Shown here in pieces: positions 2,894-13,500 of a DNA stretch of 64,000 bases. Origin of the DNA: Zingiber officinale (taxonomy: Eukaryota > Streptophyta > Magnoliopsida > Zingiberales > Zingiberaceae). Under the pieces are notes generated by a model that was not told the DNA's origin, ran no database searches, and saw only the letters and a program-made list of their open reading frames with translations. The stretch spans positions 15,859,317-15,923,316 of the forward strand of contig NC_055996.1 in assembly GCF_018446385.1 (NCBI RefSeq). The letters run 5' to 3'. The translations under genes and the position numbers were made by a program. Within the stretch, counting starts at the first letter, position 1; the number at the start of each line of letters is the position of its first letter.

Positions 2894-3003
2894 TGTGTGG
2901 CCGCCTCCGCATGGATCTCCCAGTCTTCCCAACACCAAGCAGAAGCAGCCGCCAAAGAGGAAAGAAAGAAACAGAGAGTCAATTCGAAGCAGAGAGAGCC
3001 AGC

Positions 3004-3675
3004 ATGGAGGGATTCAATTCGGGATTCAATTCAGGATTCAATTCGGATTCCGGCTCACCGTCGGCGGGGGAGACGTGGGACTACGAGACGGTGTCGTCGG
3101 CGCCGCCGAAGCGGCCGGCGGGGCGGACCAAATTCAGGGAGACGCGGCACCCGGTGTACAAGGGCGTCCGGCGGCGGGGAACGGCGGGGCGGTGGGTGTG
3201 CGAGGTGCGGGAACCCAACAAGAAGTCTAGGATCTGGCTAGGGACCTTCCCAACGGCAGATATGGCGGCGCGCGCCCACGACGCCGCCGCCATGATGCTC
3301 CGCGGCCGCGCAGCCTGCCTCAATTTCGCCGACTCCGCCTGGCTCATCCAGGTCCCGTCCTCCTTCTCCGGCCCGAGGGATATCTCCAGGGCCGCCGCGG
3401 AGGCGGCGGAGCAGTTTCGGCCCCGCGCCGCCTCCTCCTCCGCGGCCACACCTTCGCCGAAGTTTTCCACGGCCGCTACCGCGGCCTCGCGGGAAGAAGC
3501 AACTCCGACCGCCAGCGCAATCGATTTGATGAACTACGATGACATCGATTTAGGGTACTCTTACTACGCCAGCATGGCGGAGGAGTTGCTGGTGGCGCCG
3601 CCGCTGCACGGCGGGAACAATTGGGAAGACCTGGAGACGTGGGCCGATGTGCCACTCTGGAGCTACTCTATTTGA
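3004..3675 (+). CDS. CBF/DREB1-type AP2/ERF transcription factor
   Basis: An intronless gene for 223 residues. The single AP2 DNA-binding domain covers about residues 51-108. It has Val65 and Glu70 at the two positions that separate DREB from ERF proteins, so CRT/DRE (RCCGAC) binding is expected. It is preceded by the CBF signature [16 protein letters not shown] (36-50 region, also the likely nuclear localisation signal) and followed by DSAWL (110-114), close to the canonical DSAWR. The protein ends in an acidic region and LWSY (218-221), the CBF C-terminal motif. Together these place it in the A-1 (CBF/DREB1) subgroup, activators of cold and drought genes in the nucleus. The ATG at 3004 was chosen over the upstream in-frame one at 2803 because it follows the TATA box and a leader-like stretch. 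Residues 3-14 are three tandem GFNS units. It converges with the P450 gene downstream. Confidence 0.93.
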
Positions 3676-4012
3676 TGATATGCAAGATCTCGCCCTGTAC
3701 ATCAGCGAATCTAAGCTACTCTATTTGATATCTAAGATGGCTGAATTCCCAATTCCTTCTAGTAATTTTCTTCTCGGAGGAGGAATGGTCTCCGCATCAG
3801 ACCAGTGCATGTGGATAAGGCTATCAGTTGATGTGGGCTCCAGCAAATCTTCCACATGGCTGCTGATGGGCCCTAGCCGCCGGCTGGCCTATCAGGTGAC
3901 GGCAGCAGGAGATATTTTGTTGAGAGATTTGTATACTTAGCTCTCAGTTTTATATACGTGTCTAATACACATTTGTCTATTGTTTAATACACACCATGTC
4001 CAAATGCAAAGA
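3676..4012. other. convergent 3' region between AP2 and P450 genes
   Basis: About 340 bp that must contain the 3' ends of both converging transcripts. No further gene is visible. Confidence 0.6.
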
Positions 4013-4529
4013 TCAGTTCTTAAAACACAGATGTTCCTCTTCCTCATAAACAATATCAGGGGTTTGCCTGTGGCTTGCAAGAAGCTCAAGGCCTCCATCT
4101 ATTCGAAGAGTAATCGAACTTTTATATCGCACATTCCTCGACTCATCCTTCAGCTCGAACCTGAAGAAATGGAGGAGAACTGCTGACAGAATCTTCATCT
4201 GTAAGTAAGCAAAATCCTTTCCGAGGCAAATCCTTGGGCCTGCCTGTGGGAATGGAAGAACAGGAATGAATAAAAATTTGTTATACTAATTGATCGAGTG
4301 GCCGGCCGGCCTTCAGTTTGCTTACTTGAAATGCAGTGAACTTGAAGGGGTTCTCAGCTTGGAAAGCTCCATTCTCGTCGAGCCATCTTTCCGGCCGGAA
4401 GTCCTCTGCATCCTCTCCCCACAAGAACTTCATTCTGCCCATGGAGTAAGGCAAGTAGCAGATCATGTCTCCTTTTTTTATATCCAAGCGGCCTGGCAGC
4501 GTATCATCACAGAAGCATATCTTTGGATC
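4013..4529 (-). CDS. CYP704: CYP704 exons 5-6 (3' part of the P450 gene)
   Basis: Exon 5 (4529-4326, residues 383-450) carries DDTLPG, GRMKFLWG and RPERW. Exon 6 (4243-4013, residues 451-526) begins with the haem-loop AGPRICLG. The 82-bp intron between them has donor GTAAGC and acceptor CACAG. Taken alone this block would look like a truncated P450; the matching reading phase, family and order show it is the 3' end of the gene at 22033-23424. Confidence 0.88.
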
Positions 4530-7500
4530 CTTCAACATTGCAATTAACACTACAGCGAAGTCAGTGAGGCCACATCACGTTCAAAATGTTGGATATAATT
4601 ATCGCTATTAGATGAGTTTATTTATAAGTTGCACGTATAAATACGATCTAAACTCATTTAAGTGATCTAACTTAAAATTATTGAGTTTTCGGATTATTGA
4701 ATATGGATCTCATATGTATAGAATTCATTAGCCGCATTCATTGTCATCTATAGGCTGATAATGGATGTGCATTATATAATGGGTTGGCCATCAAAAGATT
4801 AGGGTATCTTTTTGAGACGTCTCTTCGTTCTCCATTGACGAAGAGAATTCGACACCGTTGACCCTAACTCCTCCGGAAGATCAACCTTCTTCTCCTTCTT
4901 CTTCCGTAAAATTGTCGGATTGACGATCTCTACACGAAGAACAATAATAATTCTACTACGTTTAGGTTATTTATAATTACAGTTGATACGGTGCATGATG
5001 GTAGGGTCAGGTCGTTAGAAGTCAAGGGGACGTGACAGTTAAAAATCAAGGGGACATGACCGTCAAAAGTCAAGAGATGTGGCAGTCAAAAGTTAAGGGA
5101 TGTGGCAGTCAGAAGTCAGAGGGCGTGGCGGTTAATATGCGGAGTAGGACCACTGGGGGCCACCCAATGTATAAAGCCAGGGCGGGGTCTAACGGTATGG
5201 AAACCAGGTATGTGACAGGACGCGTGATCAGGGCAAAACTCGACCTGGCTTTACTGGTCGGGTTTTCTTAAGCTAACTCGCGTAAACAGACTTGTCACTC
5301 TCGGTCGGGCCTGAATCATAAAAGCTGGTAGAGAGAGACTCTGATCGCCCCCTATCCATCCAACCGGTTCATCAACACGTAGCGGATCGGCCAGAGCAGC
5401 CTAGATCACTCCCAGACAGGATAATAAGCACTAAACGACAATAGGTCAGGGAATCATAACCACCTATCAGAGAATACCTGTTGCATGTTATAGAATATTT
5501 CAGCGGTTTGAGTCACCTGCAAGCAGAACTTTCCTCTAGTCTATAGAAGAAGGCCACGTGTCCTCAGCCACCTGATACCCTCTGACAGGGGTCAGTCTCT
5601 AGAAGGTACGCATTGTCATATAAAAAGGGACGTTATCTCCCTTGCGCAGGTACGCTCACTCGCACACTTGTCTACTTTTCTTTTTCCTTCGTACACTATT
5701 CTTCTGGGGAAAAAGTACCTGACTTGAGAGTCAGAGGACCTGCTCCAGGGACTTTTTCCCTAGTTTTTGGTCTTTAACGTTCTGTGTGCTTGTCTGAGTG
5801 TGCGCAGAGTCCTAGTACCGCCGGCTCAGGCCCAGTAGTCCTTCATAGCCACGTGGGGGTCTGTTTGCCGAAGCCCGCACGATCGCCGCCTCATAGTCTC
5901 TCCTCCGTCAAAACCAACGACACCTCATCCGACCTTCATCTGACTCAGATTCCAGACGGGATCAACAGTATTTATGTATTTTTTTTATGCCATGTTCTCG
6001 ATGAAACGAAGATCCATGCTTATATGTTTTTATATTTCTTATATACGAATTCTTATACAGTTCTTAGAATCAATGCAATTTAGGTTTTAACAAGAACTAT
6101 CAATTGACATCAGAGCAAGATTTTGTTTTATTATTTTTCATTGGCAATAAAATTTAAAATTTTTGTCGATTTATTATTTATATGCTAGATCAAGTTTTCC
6201 TAGTATAATACAAATTTTTGATCATCGAAAATTATGTAAGAGAAAACTATGATAGACTTTTTTTTTAAGTTTTTTGTGTTTCTGTGAAGAATACGAAAAA
6301 TGACGGAAATCATTGCTATTTAACCTAATTTTAGGTAAAAGTATGATGGTTCAATTAATTGCTTTAGTCAAGCAATCGATTGTTGAGTCTAAAATTTTGG
6401 AAAAAATTAAATTCGATTGGAATCAATTAACTAATTGATTGATATTTTTAATTAATCGAATAAGATTGAAATTCAATTAATTAATAATTTTAAATTCATG
6501 ATTATTACGTCAATTTTAATCGATTAATTTGATCAATTGAGATTTTTTTAATTGATTTAATTGAAACAGAAATTAAAAAACACTGTTTCACATTTCACTG
6601 TTTCAATGTGAAACACTGAACGAAAGACGTTAAAAAAAAAATGATGGTTTCGTTGAAACAATGAACTGAAAAAACAAAAACCATTAAATTTTTAATACCT
6701 AAATAATTAAGAAATTAAATTAAATAGTATTAAATAATACTATTTAATTATAGATCTTAAAATAACTTTTAACTTGTTACAAAAGAGTTTTATATATAAT
6801 TATATGTAGATTTTTAATCGATTAAGATAATTTATTAGATTATACCAATCAATTATTATAAGGTATCAATTGATTAATAAATTTAATTTTATATTATGAA
6901 GTAATTTTAATTCGAATTAAGTTTTTAGAGTTTTCTTGAGTCTATCTACACAACGTGCTATTAAGTTGAACTACTATATCAGTCCAAAGGAAGATATCTT
7001 AGGTAGGATTAGTGTATTTTGTATTGGTAGATATATATTTATGATAAAAATAATCGGCCCAAAGGAAGGTTATTTTTATACTAGATATATGTACAAGATA
7101 GGAACAAAATATTATTTTATTCAGATTATGCACAAAATATGTCAGTCCAAAGGAAGACATATTATGTAGCTGATTATGGTTGTTATGAGCTATGGACCAA
7201 AATATAACTCATATAAAGTATCATATTATACGCACAATGGGTCGGCTTAAAGGAAAACATATTGTGTGACCAATTAAAGTTTAAGTTATATCATAAAATA
7301 TCACTAACAAATAATGTGTCAGCCCAAAGGAAGATATATTATGTTGTATTTGGTATCTAATAAATAACTCATTTATGTGTATTTAAAATTTTATTTTATT
7401 TGCATAATTTTATGTTGCTTATATGTTCTTGGCTTTAGTTAAATCGTGAGCTTAAATAAATTTCTTTTTTTAATTTCAGTGCAATCTGTAACTGCCAATA

Positions 7501-10500
7501 TTAATAACATCCCAACACTAACTGGTTCGAATTTTGATGAATGGAAAAAAAAATACGTGATTGTAGTCTTAAGCTGTATGGACTTAGACTATGCATTAAG
7601 GAATGATCGCTTTGCACCTCTGACAAGTGCTAGCACTATAGAGTAGAGGAATGAATTTCAATTGCGGGAGAAATCAAATAGCATGAGTCTAAGTATCATG
7701 AGGCTATCCATATTAGCACCAAATAAAGAGTCGATAACTGAGGGAGAAGATGCTAAGAGTTTTCTAAACCAATTGACAGACCGATTCATCTCAAATGAAA
7801 AGATCCACACTACCACACTTCTTACGAAGTTGGTAACCATGCGGTATACTAGAAAAGAAAACATAAAGGAGAGACTGAGGCGTGAGACACCTAAAAGTGC
7901 TCACCTAACATCTAGATCTTAAGCTAAGGTTCAAGAAGAGACAGAGGATCAATAAAGAAAAGTTAAAGCAGACTGCAGATTCTGGGAGTTTTCAAAATGT
8001 TGTTAGTTCGGAAGTTAATTTAGCTATACTACCCACTGACACTTAGTGGATAAACACCGGTGCTACTATTCATATAAGTGTTATCTTAGGAGCCATCATC
8101 CACTTGATGGTGAAAGACATCTATATGGGGAATGACAAGAAGGCTAAAGTAGAGTTCATAGATGTTTTTAGGCTTAATTTAAGAACTGATGTCTTTCTGA
8201 ATTTAGAAAATACATTTATTGTACTGTCTTTCAGACGGAACTTAATTTCAATTCCCTTTTTTGGACAAATCAGGTTATTCTTGTTCATTTAGAAATGAAA
8301 TATTTAGTATTTTCTTTAATTCAGTTTTAATTGGCAATGGTTCCTTAGTTGATAATGTTGGTACCCAAGGTTGTTTTGATGTGATCAAATAAGTTAAGTT
8401 AGGTCTTATTATGTTTAACCTTGTGTCTAAGTGTGCAGGAGCTAGGAGCATAAGAAGTCGAGCAAAAGACGCGGCTAGTGAGAACGACGACACGGGAGAG
8501 AGCCGACGGGCTCGGTGCGTCCGAGGGACGATGTGCTGCGAAAGAGTACGCGGGCAGACGAGAAGGAGGCGCGAGGCATTTCCGAGGGATGAGAAGTCGG
8601 AGCGGAAGGTTGCTCGAGAAGGTCGGAAGTTGGGTTCGGGTGAGCCCTATTCCGGGTGGCTGAAATCATACAAGTGATCGGAGCCGGAGCGGAAGACCCG
8701 GACCGAGACGAGCAGCACCGGAGCAGAAGGCTCGGACCAAAAAAAGTCAACCTTGCTGACTTTTAGGGTCCGAGCGCCTAGAACCTATTTTTATCCACAT
8801 CCGATGTGGATGTTGACCATTGCGTCAGGGATAGAATTCTATCCCACTCTAGGCGCCTGGAATCTTTCCAAGCGCCTCGACCAAGACTATAATATAGCCT
8901 TGGTCCAGAAGCTAAATAACAACAAACATCTTGAGTAACAATACTTGTACGCTTTCAGTTTTCATTTAGCTTCTTCCTTTCTGAGCTTTCATTACTGTAA
9001 AGAGGCTTCTCCGCCTGAAGGAGATATTAGTGCGTTCCATTTTCTTGGATTAACAACCTCCCCGGTTGTAACCAAGTAAAACTTCGGTGCCTCTATTTTT
9101 CAATTTATCTTTTATTTATGTAAGTGTTTGTTTAAGTTATAAGCCGAGAAAGGTTTGCTTGTTTCTGTTTTTGTGCAGGGCTATTCAACCCCCTTCTAAT
9201 CCAATATAGGTTCCAGCCAACTGGATTAATTAAATATTTTTTAGGAACATATTTCTTTGAAATTTTCCTAATTTATCCTTTGTGATATTTAAAATATCAG
9301 TTTAAATTATATCTTCTAAAACTTGCATTATATGTCCATGTATGATTTTTCAAAATTTTTATTTTTTTTATAAATTGTCATTTTCTAGCTTTAATGCATC
9401 ATCTTCTAGCTGGCCAATTAAAGTTCAAGTAAACCTTAACTTGAACTTTAATTGACTTAGCGCTTTCAACGAAAAAATTAGACGTTTAATTTTCTTATGC
9501 GGCTTTGTCTAGAAAATGGTTATTGCTCCAATAACCAAGAAGGTCTAGTGCCTCGCCACAGTCTGGAAGTCAAATATTGAAATAAAATATTTAATTGATT
9601 AACTGTTAAAATATTAAAATTGAAATTAGATAATGATTTGAATAGTTATTTAATTATTTTTGGAAATTCTAAAATTTTTCTATGCAAATATGTTTAACTT
9701 AAAAATAAAATTTCTCATTTTTTTTAACTTAAAGTTTTTTTTTTAACTTGTGCTTTACCAAAATGTATTTTATATATTACACAGATCTTTTTTAAAAACT
9801 TAGAAAAAAAATTTTCTTAGAAATTTTTTTCTTACTTAGAAATTTTTTACTTAAATTTTTTTCTAACTATCAGATTTACTTTATCAAAATTTCTACAATT
9901 TTTTTTTAAATTTGTTTACTAAGGAAATTATTGATTGTTTCACACAATTTTTACTTATATTTTTTTTAAAAAATTTTAGTGTTATCAAAAGTATTTTCAG
10001 TATTTTCAAAAAGCTTGATAAATTTTCTAAAATTATTTGGAAATCATAATTTTATAAACATTACCCTTAGATTTTTTTTTTTTGTACTCCATTTTTTATG
10101 TGATCAAAGGGAGAAAAGGGAGAATTAAGTCTAGGGGGCGGTAGCTTAATTTTTTTTTTTTTGCACTTTATTGTAAAATTTAGTGTTATAAATTTATAGC
10201 TGTTTACTCTATTTTAACTTGGGTTGCTTATATCAAAAAGGGGGAGATTGTTAGTACCCCAAGGTTGTTTTGATGTGATCAGATAAGTTAAGTTAGGTCC
10301 TATTATGTTTAATCTTGTGTCTAAGTGTGTAAGAGTTTAGAAGCACAAGAAGTCGAGCAAAAGATGCAGCTAGTGAGAACGACGACACTGGAGAGAGCTG
10401 ACGAGTTCGATGCGTCCGAGGGACGAGGTGCTGCGGAAGAGTACGCAGGCGGACAAGAAGGAGACGCGAGGTGTTTCCGAGGGATGAGAAGCCGGAGCGG

Positions 10501-13500
10501 AAGGTTGCTCAAGAAGGTCAGAAGTTGGATTTGGGTGAGCCCTATTCCGGATGGCCGAAATCACCCAAGCGAGCGGAGCCAGAGTGGAAGACCCAGACCG
10601 AGGCGAGCAACATCGGAGCAGAGGCTCCGGATCGAAAAAACTCAACGTTGTTGACTTTTAGGGTTCGGGCGCCCGGAACCTATTTTTATCCACATTTGAC
10701 GTGGATGCTGACTGTTGTGTCGGGGATATAATTCTATCCCACTCCAGGCGCCTAGAACCCTTCCAGACGCCCCTACCAAGGCTATAAATATAGCCTTGGT
10801 CCAGAAGCTAAATACAACAAGCATCTTGAGTAACAACACTTGTACACTTTCAATTTTCATTTAGCTTCTTCCTTTCTGAGCTTTCATTGCTGTAAAGAGG
10901 CTTCTCCGCCTGAAGGAGATATTAGTGCATTCCATTTCCTTGGATTACAAACTCTCCGATTGTAATAAAGTAAAACTTTGGTGCCTCTGTTTTCCAGTTT
11001 ATCTTTTATTTATGCAAGTGTTTGTTTAAGTTATAAGCCGAGAAAGGTTTGTTTGTTTCTATTTTTGTGCAGGGCTATTCAACCCCCCTTTTAGCCGACC
11101 AACGGGTCCTATCAGATAAGCTTTATAAATTGAACATCTTTATTTCTACAGTTGACAACGTAATAATGTATAGTATAGGTACGAAATGCAAATTGACTAA
11201 TGAGAATTCTTCCATGTTTGGGCATAGGCGTTTAGGACATATATCCAAACAACGCCTAGAAATATTAATATCACATGGAATTCTCGATTTTCTTGACATG
11301 TTAGACTTTGATGTCCACATAGAGTGTATCAAGGAGAAGACTATTAACAAAAGGAATAAGTGGGCTAGTTGTTGTAGTGACGTTTTGGAGTTAATACATA
11401 CGGACATTTGTGGACTATTCCCTAAAGCATCTTGGACATATATATTTTATTAGCTTTATGGATGACTATTCTAGATTTGACTATCTGTACCTTATTCATG
11501 AGAAGTCGTAATTTTTGGACATGTTCAAAATTTTCAAAGCTGAAGTTGAATTTCAACTAGGTAAGAAAATTAAAGTCGTTCGATCCGACTATGGAGGTAA
11601 ATATTACGGTCGATATGATGGATCAGGTAAACAATGTCCAAGACCTTTTGCAAACTACCTTGCTGAGTGTTGGATTGTGTCTCAATATACCATGCCTAGT
11701 ACACCCAGTAAGAATGGTGTAGCTAAGTATCACAATCGAATCCTAAAAGAAATGGTAAGAAGTATGTCGGCTTTCACTTCTCTACCAGAGTCCTTGTAGA
11801 ATGAAGCACTCAAGACTACAGTTTACCTACTCAATAGAGTACCTAGTAAGGCAGTAACTAAAACCTCATTCGAGATGTGGACAGGTAGAAACCTTAGCAT
11901 TAGGTATTTACACATTTGATGTTGTACAGCTGAAGCTAGGCCTTATAAGTCTAATGAAAGGAAACTGGATTCAAGAACAGTTAGCTGTAATTTTTAGGTT
12001 ATTTTGAGAAGTCAAGAGGGTATAAATTTTATGATCCCCCTAATAGATCCTTTTTTGAAACGGGAAAAGTCAAATTCATTGAGGACAGTGGGAGTGATAA
12101 GGTCAGGAAAATATTTTTTGAGTAATGTGTTGGCAATCCTCCTATGGTCACTACTAGTGCAATCAGTAGCGGTATGATTATCATATTGTACATTATAGAC
12201 ATCACACATCCAGTGAGCGTAGTGAATCAAAATATTTTCATTACATCTCCAATACAATTGGAGGAGTCTGCCATTGAAATTGAAGTATTGCCTTATATTA
12301 ATGAGCAACTATCTCAACCACCTTAAACAGAAGTGCCTTTAAGGTAATCCACAAGGGAACGGAGAACCATTAATTCTCGTGATTATATTTATCTCCAAAA
12401 GTAAGATTTTGACATAGGGTTGGAAAGTAATCCTACATTTTTCCAAGAAGTCAAACAATGCTCTAACCTTGAAAGGTGGATTAACGCTATGCAAGAAGAG
12501 TTGAAGTCTATGACAGACAATGACGTTTGGAAACTTATCGAATTGCCTGAAGGTAAGAAGTCCGTTGGTTATAAATGAATATTTAAAACCAAGCGGGATT
12601 CAAGGGACAATGCCAAAAAGTATAAGGCTCGTCTTGTTGCCAAGAGATTCACTCAGAAAGAAGACATTGATTACAAGGAGACTTTCTCACCTATATCGAT
12701 GAAAGACTCATTTAGGGTAATTATGGTACTTGTAACTCATTATGATTTGGAGTTACATCAAATGAACATAAAGACTGCATTCCTCAATGGAGACATATAG
12801 GAGTCTATATATATAGTGCAACTAGAGAACTTTGAGTCTAAGGACTCAGAGCACCTAGTATGTAAATTAAAAAAGTTCATTTATAGATTAAAACAGGTAT
12901 CCCATCAGTGGTATCGAAAATTTGATCAAGTGGTTGTCTCATATGATTTTAAAGAGAACCCCATTGATCAGTGCATATATGTCAAGTTCAGTGGAAGCAA
13001 GTTTTTTATACTTGTTTTGTACGTGAACGATCTATTGCTTGCGAGTAATAATAAGGGTCTGTTGCTTCAAACTAAGTCATTTCTATTTGGTAATTTTAAA
13101 ATAAAAGATCTTGGTGAAGCATCCTTGGTTTTAGGCATACAGATCTATCATGATCGTTCAAGAGACATTCTTGGACTTTCACAATAGACTTATATTGAAA
13201 AGATGCGTATAAGGTATGTTGGTGCAGGAAGCATCAATGATTGAACCTATGTTTTGATTATGTCAAAGAGTTCAAAGTTAAGGTATTTTGTTATCTGATA
13301 TCTTGAATGAGCATTGCAGGAAAGTCCTAAGTTTATTTAGGTAAAAGTCCTAGCTGCGGTTAGGCAAAGGGAAAACCCTAGGGGGCGGTAACCCTAGGTC
13401 ATAGGGGGCGGTAACTCTATGCGGAAAGCCTTAGCGGATCGGAGCTTCGGGCAAAAATCCTAGGGGGCGGTAACCCTAGGTTAAAATCCTGTTGTCGCGA

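Follow-up and report, generated by a model that had tools for sequence, protein, structure and literature searches.

In HIV-1, part of the packaging signal psi is removed by splicing. Retroviral Gag picks the unspliced RNA via 5′ structures, and in RSV psi is present on spliced RNA as well, according to the accessible sections of the source (PMC5035971). For Ty1, which like the element described here belongs to the Copia superfamily, a packaging region has been proposed near the 5′ end (+230–580), and the preferred Gag site is a pseudoknot and not a set of repeated hairpins, as given in the available portion of the article (PMC8396678). Among plant elements, splicing has been described for Ogre, EVADE, and BARE1 in the accessible parts of the respective papers (PMC12786077, PMC6317226, PMC3735527), and the available text of a 2025 review treats plant LTR elements as generally intron-less, with Ogre and EVADE as exceptions (PMC12786077).

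The hairpin array considered here lies upstream of gag in a Copia element (RVT_2, E 3e-24; gag_pre-integrs, E 7e-10) within a 64-kb window, by which is meant the whole stretch of DNA analysed. Sequence comparison gives good support for a conserved multi-hairpin RNA element, with up to five hairpins, in one group of plant Copia families, the stems of which compensate between families. Judging from predicted splice sites and reading phase, the array probably sits in an intron that separates a first exon, located in the LTR, from the remainder of gag. As the best overall explanation we propose, with moderate confidence, that the array in this LTR–gag intron would be bound by Gag and mark the unspliced RNA for packaging.

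In Ty1, the gag start is located in the LTR, as predicted here, but its reading continues across the PBS with no intron in between, unlike the layout proposed for the present element. As for retroviral psi, the candidate signal is structured RNA near the 5′ end composed of several stem-loops, here with compensating changes (compare the accessible sections of PMC5035971). The candidate differs from psi in that a single tip recurs up to five times within ~370 nt, the PBS would fall inside the intron, and the splice would be needed for gag itself. In Ogre, EVADE, and BARE1, splicing yields a second RNA, as predicted here (available parts of PMC12786077 and PMC3735527), but in these accounts the introns are found in or after gag or between ORFs, and none of them takes out the PBS and leader or links gag to a start codon in the LTR. 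The export elements of mouse IAP and musD are likewise cis-acting structures on unspliced RNA, in different hosts (accessible text of PMC12786077). Among the titles and abstract beginnings listed in searches of the open-access literature, none describes such an array in a plant element or an intron that spans the PBS there, and the entries listed for packaging structures included no packaging signal of known fold from plants.

The five hairpins occupy positions 6965–7348 of the window and share one loop, CRGYYYAAAGGAAR, which starts at 6980, 7055, 7143, 7243, and 7320 (spacings 75, 88, 100, and 77). The spacing of 88 is 12 nt less than the 98–101 seen at that place in other complete copies. 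Coordinates of the individual features are collected in Table 1.

Table 1. Features of the hairpin-bearing Copia copy, in window coordinates
Feature	Position	Strand	Remarks
5′ LTR, upstream part	4586–4905	+	Matches LTR of relative L012
5′ LTR, downstream end	5980–6102	+	
PBS-like stretch	6105–6116	+	tgacatcagagc; relatives have TGGTATCAGAGC
Hairpin 1	6965–7008	+	12-nt loop 6981–6992; 9/12 stem positions paired; weak alone, z +0.5
Hairpin 2	7040–7083	+	Loop 7056–7067; 12/12 stem positions paired, plus outer stem; z -5.0
Hairpin 3 (H3)	7128–7171	+	Loop 7144–7155; 11/12 paired; z -2.9; site of the comparison of eight families/subfamilies
Hairpin 4	7228–7271	+	Loop 7244–7255; 10/12 paired; weak alone, z -0.9
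Hairpin 5	7305–7348	+	Loop 7321–7332; 11/12 paired; z -3.7; ~150 nt 5′ of predicted 3′ splice site
Predicted 3′ splice site	7461–7479	+	Pyrimidine-rich tract ending in CAG; gag frame goes on in phase 1
Gag exon start	7480–7646	+	Runs to an in-frame stop in this copy

With the 12-nt loop fixed and 12 flanking positions counted on each side, the five hairpins comprise 60 stem positions, of which 53 are paired, compared with 28.6 ± 3.9 in dinucleotide-shuffled flanks; none of 5000 shuffles equalled 53, and in 200000 draws no set of five positions picked at random from the leader was as good. This agrees with a preceding sequence-only reading of the window, which had described five tandem hairpins with a single loop at intervals of 75–100 bp and had named shuffled sequence as the check on the stems. 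When each hairpin is folded alone and compared with shuffles, 2, 3, and 5 are exceptional and 1 and 4 are not. Run over the 64 kb, a covariance model of 21 hairpins gives exactly five matches (E 5e-11 to 3e-8); as those 21 included the five from the window, this search tells only that the window holds no further copy. The less regular sixth stem suggested at 7182–7210 was rejected, as it has no model match, a z of -1.1, and 24 of 200 shuffles fold equally well. In agreement with the view that no described RNA family has this design, Rfam 15 gives four matches at E ≤ 5 in window positions 6500–7700, all under the gathering scores of their families.

Relatives were sought in this genome only, a 3.09-Gb assembly. 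The 372-bp region gave 997 first-look candidates as query, 40 of which were scored (83–100% identical), and of 32 relatives fetched from the scored list, 29 carry all five loops at spacings of 75/100/100/77, give or take 4 nt, and the other three carry a smaller number. Genome-wide, the word TCGGCCCAAAGGAAG occurs 2467 times if one mismatch is allowed, compared with 109 for the reversed word. From a list based on the loop pattern 40 loci were drawn; two of them (L040 and L064) match singly and are unrelated, and one locus of family D (L074) has one model match only. Families B, C, and D, the stems of which differ, were found by the loop pattern, and the window copy belongs with family A.

The covariation looked for among same-family relatives is nearly absent. 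Over 63 A copies, the window included, 3 of the 65 pair positions do better than every one of 200 shuffles, and these are all in hairpin 5, where they stem from a sub-lineage of four copies (L045, L053, L063, and L069) that has another stem, with A-U to U-A and G-C to U-A among the changes, and another tip. The A copies decay much like neutral sequence. Because there is almost no covariation within family A, it is not used as evidence here, and the survival of the array in the broken window element, which had been pointed out before, reflects limited decay and not present selection.

The comparison between families gives a different picture. For a sample independent of the loop, the genome was searched with the N-terminus of the family C gag (Retrotran_gag_2, E 3e-15), and 20 of 150 listed rows, spread over ~50 to 99% identity, were chosen before their leaders were viewed. 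A model match at E ≤ 0.01 is present in 18 of the 20 upstream stretches (E 10/10, F 4/5, G 1/2, B2 2/2, and C 1/1); L094 has no model match, and L093 has weak matches only, the best at E 0.11. Families E, F, and G were first met in this search. As control, 20 of 150 listed matches of other Copia elements to the Pfam gag model PF14223, from six sequence clusters, were used, and their leaders have no model match at E ≤ 1 and no CCAAAG in the 741–751 nt upstream. In these elements the PBS is 86–156 nt 5′ of the gag match, and because the leaders are this short, most of the control upstream stretches consist of LTR. The two samples together indicate that the hairpins accompany a group of Copia families with a long stretch between PBS and gag.

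At H3, one hand-picked copy from each of eight families or subfamilies (A, B, B2, C, D, E, F, and G) gives 91.1% paired positions, as opposed to 70.8% in shuffles, and none of 500 shuffles reaches the observed pairing or covariation score. Both sides have changed in 9 of 14 pairs, a number reached by 4 of 500 shuffles. In a wider test with 19 family-by-position rows, also hand-picked at one copy per family and position, 199 of 228 positions are paired compared with 147.1 ± 9.2 with permuted partners (0/20000; H3 alone 3/20000, H4 alone 56/20000); the rows are ungapped, with gapped alignments left out of the counts, as are H1 of B, C, E, and F and H5 of B, C, E, F, and G, which have different loop lengths, while the poorly paired H4 of F (7/12) is kept. 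Other copies read at H3 in the same register have 10 or 11 of 12 positions paired in all ten E copies, 11 in both B2 copies, and 11 in C. In F the figure is 10/12 in L086, L088, and L090 and 5/12 in L085 and L093, and in G it is 11/12 in L095, with no H3 found in L094. The proposal of a conserved structure of RNA type, in which the tip is fixed and the stems compensate, is thus borne out across these Copia families, and selection on that structure finds support in the H3 and 19-row tests between families but not within family A.

The tip is fixed, as had been noted, but the constant unit is smaller than the 14-nt loop of the earlier description. Its core is a predicted CAAA loop cap with a C-G closing pair, followed outward in most copies by a second pair (C-G, U-G, or U-A) and then by an internal loop of GG/AA type. 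In B, C, E, and F, an extra short hairpin with a CAAA tip is found 5′ of the main array, and by eye its pairs seem to covary (for example UCAC/GUGA, UUGC/GUAG, and UCGC/GCGA).

On the 3′ side of the array, a pyrimidine-rich tract ending in AG precedes gag in families A, B, C, E, F, and G, with entry in phase 1 in 6/6 families as judged by eye; of the eight rows labelled F in this survey, three (L033, L040, and L057) are false anchors. The acceptor AG is kept in 42 of 48 copies of family A, and among the six families single copies have lost it, e.g., L081, L088, L095, and L096. Furthermore, 36 of the 48 A copies lack an in-frame ATG in the interval from the nearest stop to gag, and in the controls 19 of 20 have an in-frame ATG after the PBS. 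Of the 20 leaders chosen by gag similarity, 13 have an in-frame ATG close to the acceptor and seven do not, so that splicing is not strictly needed in those 13; in F, CpG decay may be the source of this ATG.

On the 5′ side, the LTR of relatives contains an ATG from which 3 to 16 codons lead to a predicted GT donor in phase 1. Family A has two types of this predicted exon 1, of 16 and 22 nt. A first count of 21/21 A copies with the ATG used a template that itself contained those letters, but a count with an anchor downstream of the donor is independent of the exon letters, and among 23 A copies it finds the ATG in phase 1 in 22, together with the GT in 20, and with a stop-free frame as well in 18. 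By the same check, the window copy has no exon 1 ATG or donor. From one copy each, exon 1 reads ATGAATTCAG followed by GTATGT in E, ATGGATTCTG followed by GTACGC in C, where it ends TG/GT, and ATG...GATTCAG followed by GTCAGC in B, with one stop inside. For F and G, exon 1 was not found, and in F the fetched stretch shows no PBS either. Under a strict donor test (open frame, AG/GT, phase 1, and at most 250 nt from the PBS), 7 of 9 LTR ends of the hairpin group pass, with B and C failing, compared with 1 of 20 controls. The usual plant donor is GTAAGT, from which the donors of A (GTTCTT) and B (GTCAGC) differ. Another candidate donor soon after the PBS (AG/GTAAAA, at about window position 6335) was discarded, as several A copies lack it, as do B and C, and it belongs to a further inverted repeat.

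The predicted introns measure 1503–1590 nt in four A copies, 1655 nt in B, 1499 nt in C, and 825 nt in E, and contain 21–31 ATGs. In the four A copies, the GC fraction is 0.27–0.28 in the intron and 0.42–0.53 on the exon side, whereas the drop at the donor is small in B (0.40 to 0.37) and C (0.40 to 0.34). The PBS is located 98–157 nt 3′ of the predicted donor, and the acceptor lies ~115–160 nt 3′ of the hairpin 5 tip where this was measured. The start codon follows a TATA-like word by ~162–176 nt in A and E and by 125 nt in C. Among eight A copies, three have no other ATG beyond the TATA box itself, and five have one 124–145 nt before the start; in E and C, an additional ATG occurs 22 and 31 nt after the TATA word, respectively. 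In several family E copies (L079–L092), the acceptor is preceded by ten bases, ATGAATTCAG, that are the same as exon 1 in the LTR, ATGAATTCAG (L119, ~990–999). Owing to this identity, which is possibly a trace of how the intron originated, spliced and unspliced RNA could yield the same Gag N-terminus.

Since the array apparently falls within an intron between the LTR exon and gag, "leader" is probably the wrong word for its location, and a direct role in gag translation, one of the functions first considered, becomes less likely. We predict that translation of gag would begin at the ATG in the 5′ LTR, with the phase 1 donor splitting the frame, and that splicing would provide a translatable gag mRNA devoid of PBS and hairpins. 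The intron-retaining RNA would be the genome; because the predicted intron includes both PBS and hairpins, only this unspliced RNA would carry them. The repeated tips may act as a multivalent site whose most likely ligand is the Gag of the element itself, and binding of Gag to the tips would select the unspliced RNA for encapsidation and reverse transcription. We infer that the array acts as a packaging or sorting signal on unspliced RNA, a reading preferred here because an almost unchanging tip recurs on stems that are free to vary, as would suit a multivalent protein site, and because the array would be present on genome RNA only. Whether a single splicing choice sorts the transcripts completely, so that spliced RNA would only be translated and unspliced RNA only packaged and copied, with PBS and multivalent array both held in the intron, is to us an evenly balanced proposition. 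If true, an array common to distant families within a PBS-removing intron would constitute a concrete, testable sorting device. The hairpin array would furthermore provide a structural marker for a Copia group and a new RNA family for annotation.

Control of splicing or RNA export would fit equally. The hairpins might restrain splicing of some transcripts or recruit an export factor, whereby genomic RNA would reach the cytoplasm, and the tips found in four A copies are all within ~510 nt 5′ of the predicted acceptor. Multivalent protein binding suits repeated tips also in this case, and export elements are known in mouse IAP and musD (accessible text of PMC12786077). Hairpin 5, however, is removed from the acceptor by the distance given above, where measured, and not placed upon it, and we consider a function in splicing or export possible but rather doubtful. 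It is less probable still, and in our judgement unlikely, that there is no intron and that the array belongs to a long 5′ leader serving gag translation (by ribosome shunt or internal entry) or dimerisation. The 21–31 ATGs within the predicted introns, the A copies that have no in-frame ATG before gag, and the agreement of donor and acceptor phases in the four families with both sites seen (A, B, C, and E) all argue against an uninterrupted leader, which on the other hand would account for the 13 gag-selected leaders with an in-frame ATG near the acceptor, for the weak donors of A and B, and for the failure of B and C in the strict donor test.

A diverged tandem duplication, in which pairing is an unselected by-product of A/T-rich palindromic sequence, appears highly improbable. 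The leader is indeed A/T-rich with many inverted repeats, pairing within family A is barely above shuffled, and window hairpins 1 and 4 are unremarkable when folded singly. Shuffles of the flanks that keep dinucleotides nevertheless never reached the observed pairing, and the stems change in a compensating manner between families in which the tip is almost invariant.

Other repeats are present in the same region. The leaders of A and B are rich in palindromes of the AATCGATT type, which are densest in B (window 6350–6900; reverse complement of L041, 800–1150). A second inverted repeat is found ~200–240 nt 3′ of the PBS in A and B, where by eye the sequence differs and the place is similar (window ~6310–6350; L013, reverse complement, ~1990–2030; L048 ~238–278). 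In B it is an almost perfect palindrome, which would suit dimerisation.

The window copy itself is broken, with its 5′ LTR in pieces and exon 1 gone, and the LTR stretch that contains exon 1 and donor in relatives has no counterpart between 4905 and 5980. Its two gag pieces are without Pfam match. Paired LTRs are seen in relative L012 at 675–1260 and 7473–8058, with 93% identity; L012 is the one of ten stretches in which an element-spanning pair is clear, whereas the others show damage, exceed the stretch in length, or are less clear-cut. Close to the broken 5′ LTR, two open stretches on the minus strand (4013–4574) contain PAGPRICLGKDF and resemble what we take to be the heme-binding end of a plant cytochrome P450. 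Between gag and integrase, the Copia copy is split by a nested element of ~2.7 kb (8356–11114) with direct terminal repeats of ~840 bp (8364–9202 and 10258–11096) that are 87–94% alike over matched blocks. Another nested insertion is found in L018, where ~2.6 kb of other sequence (2984–5586) lies at the end of hairpin 5.
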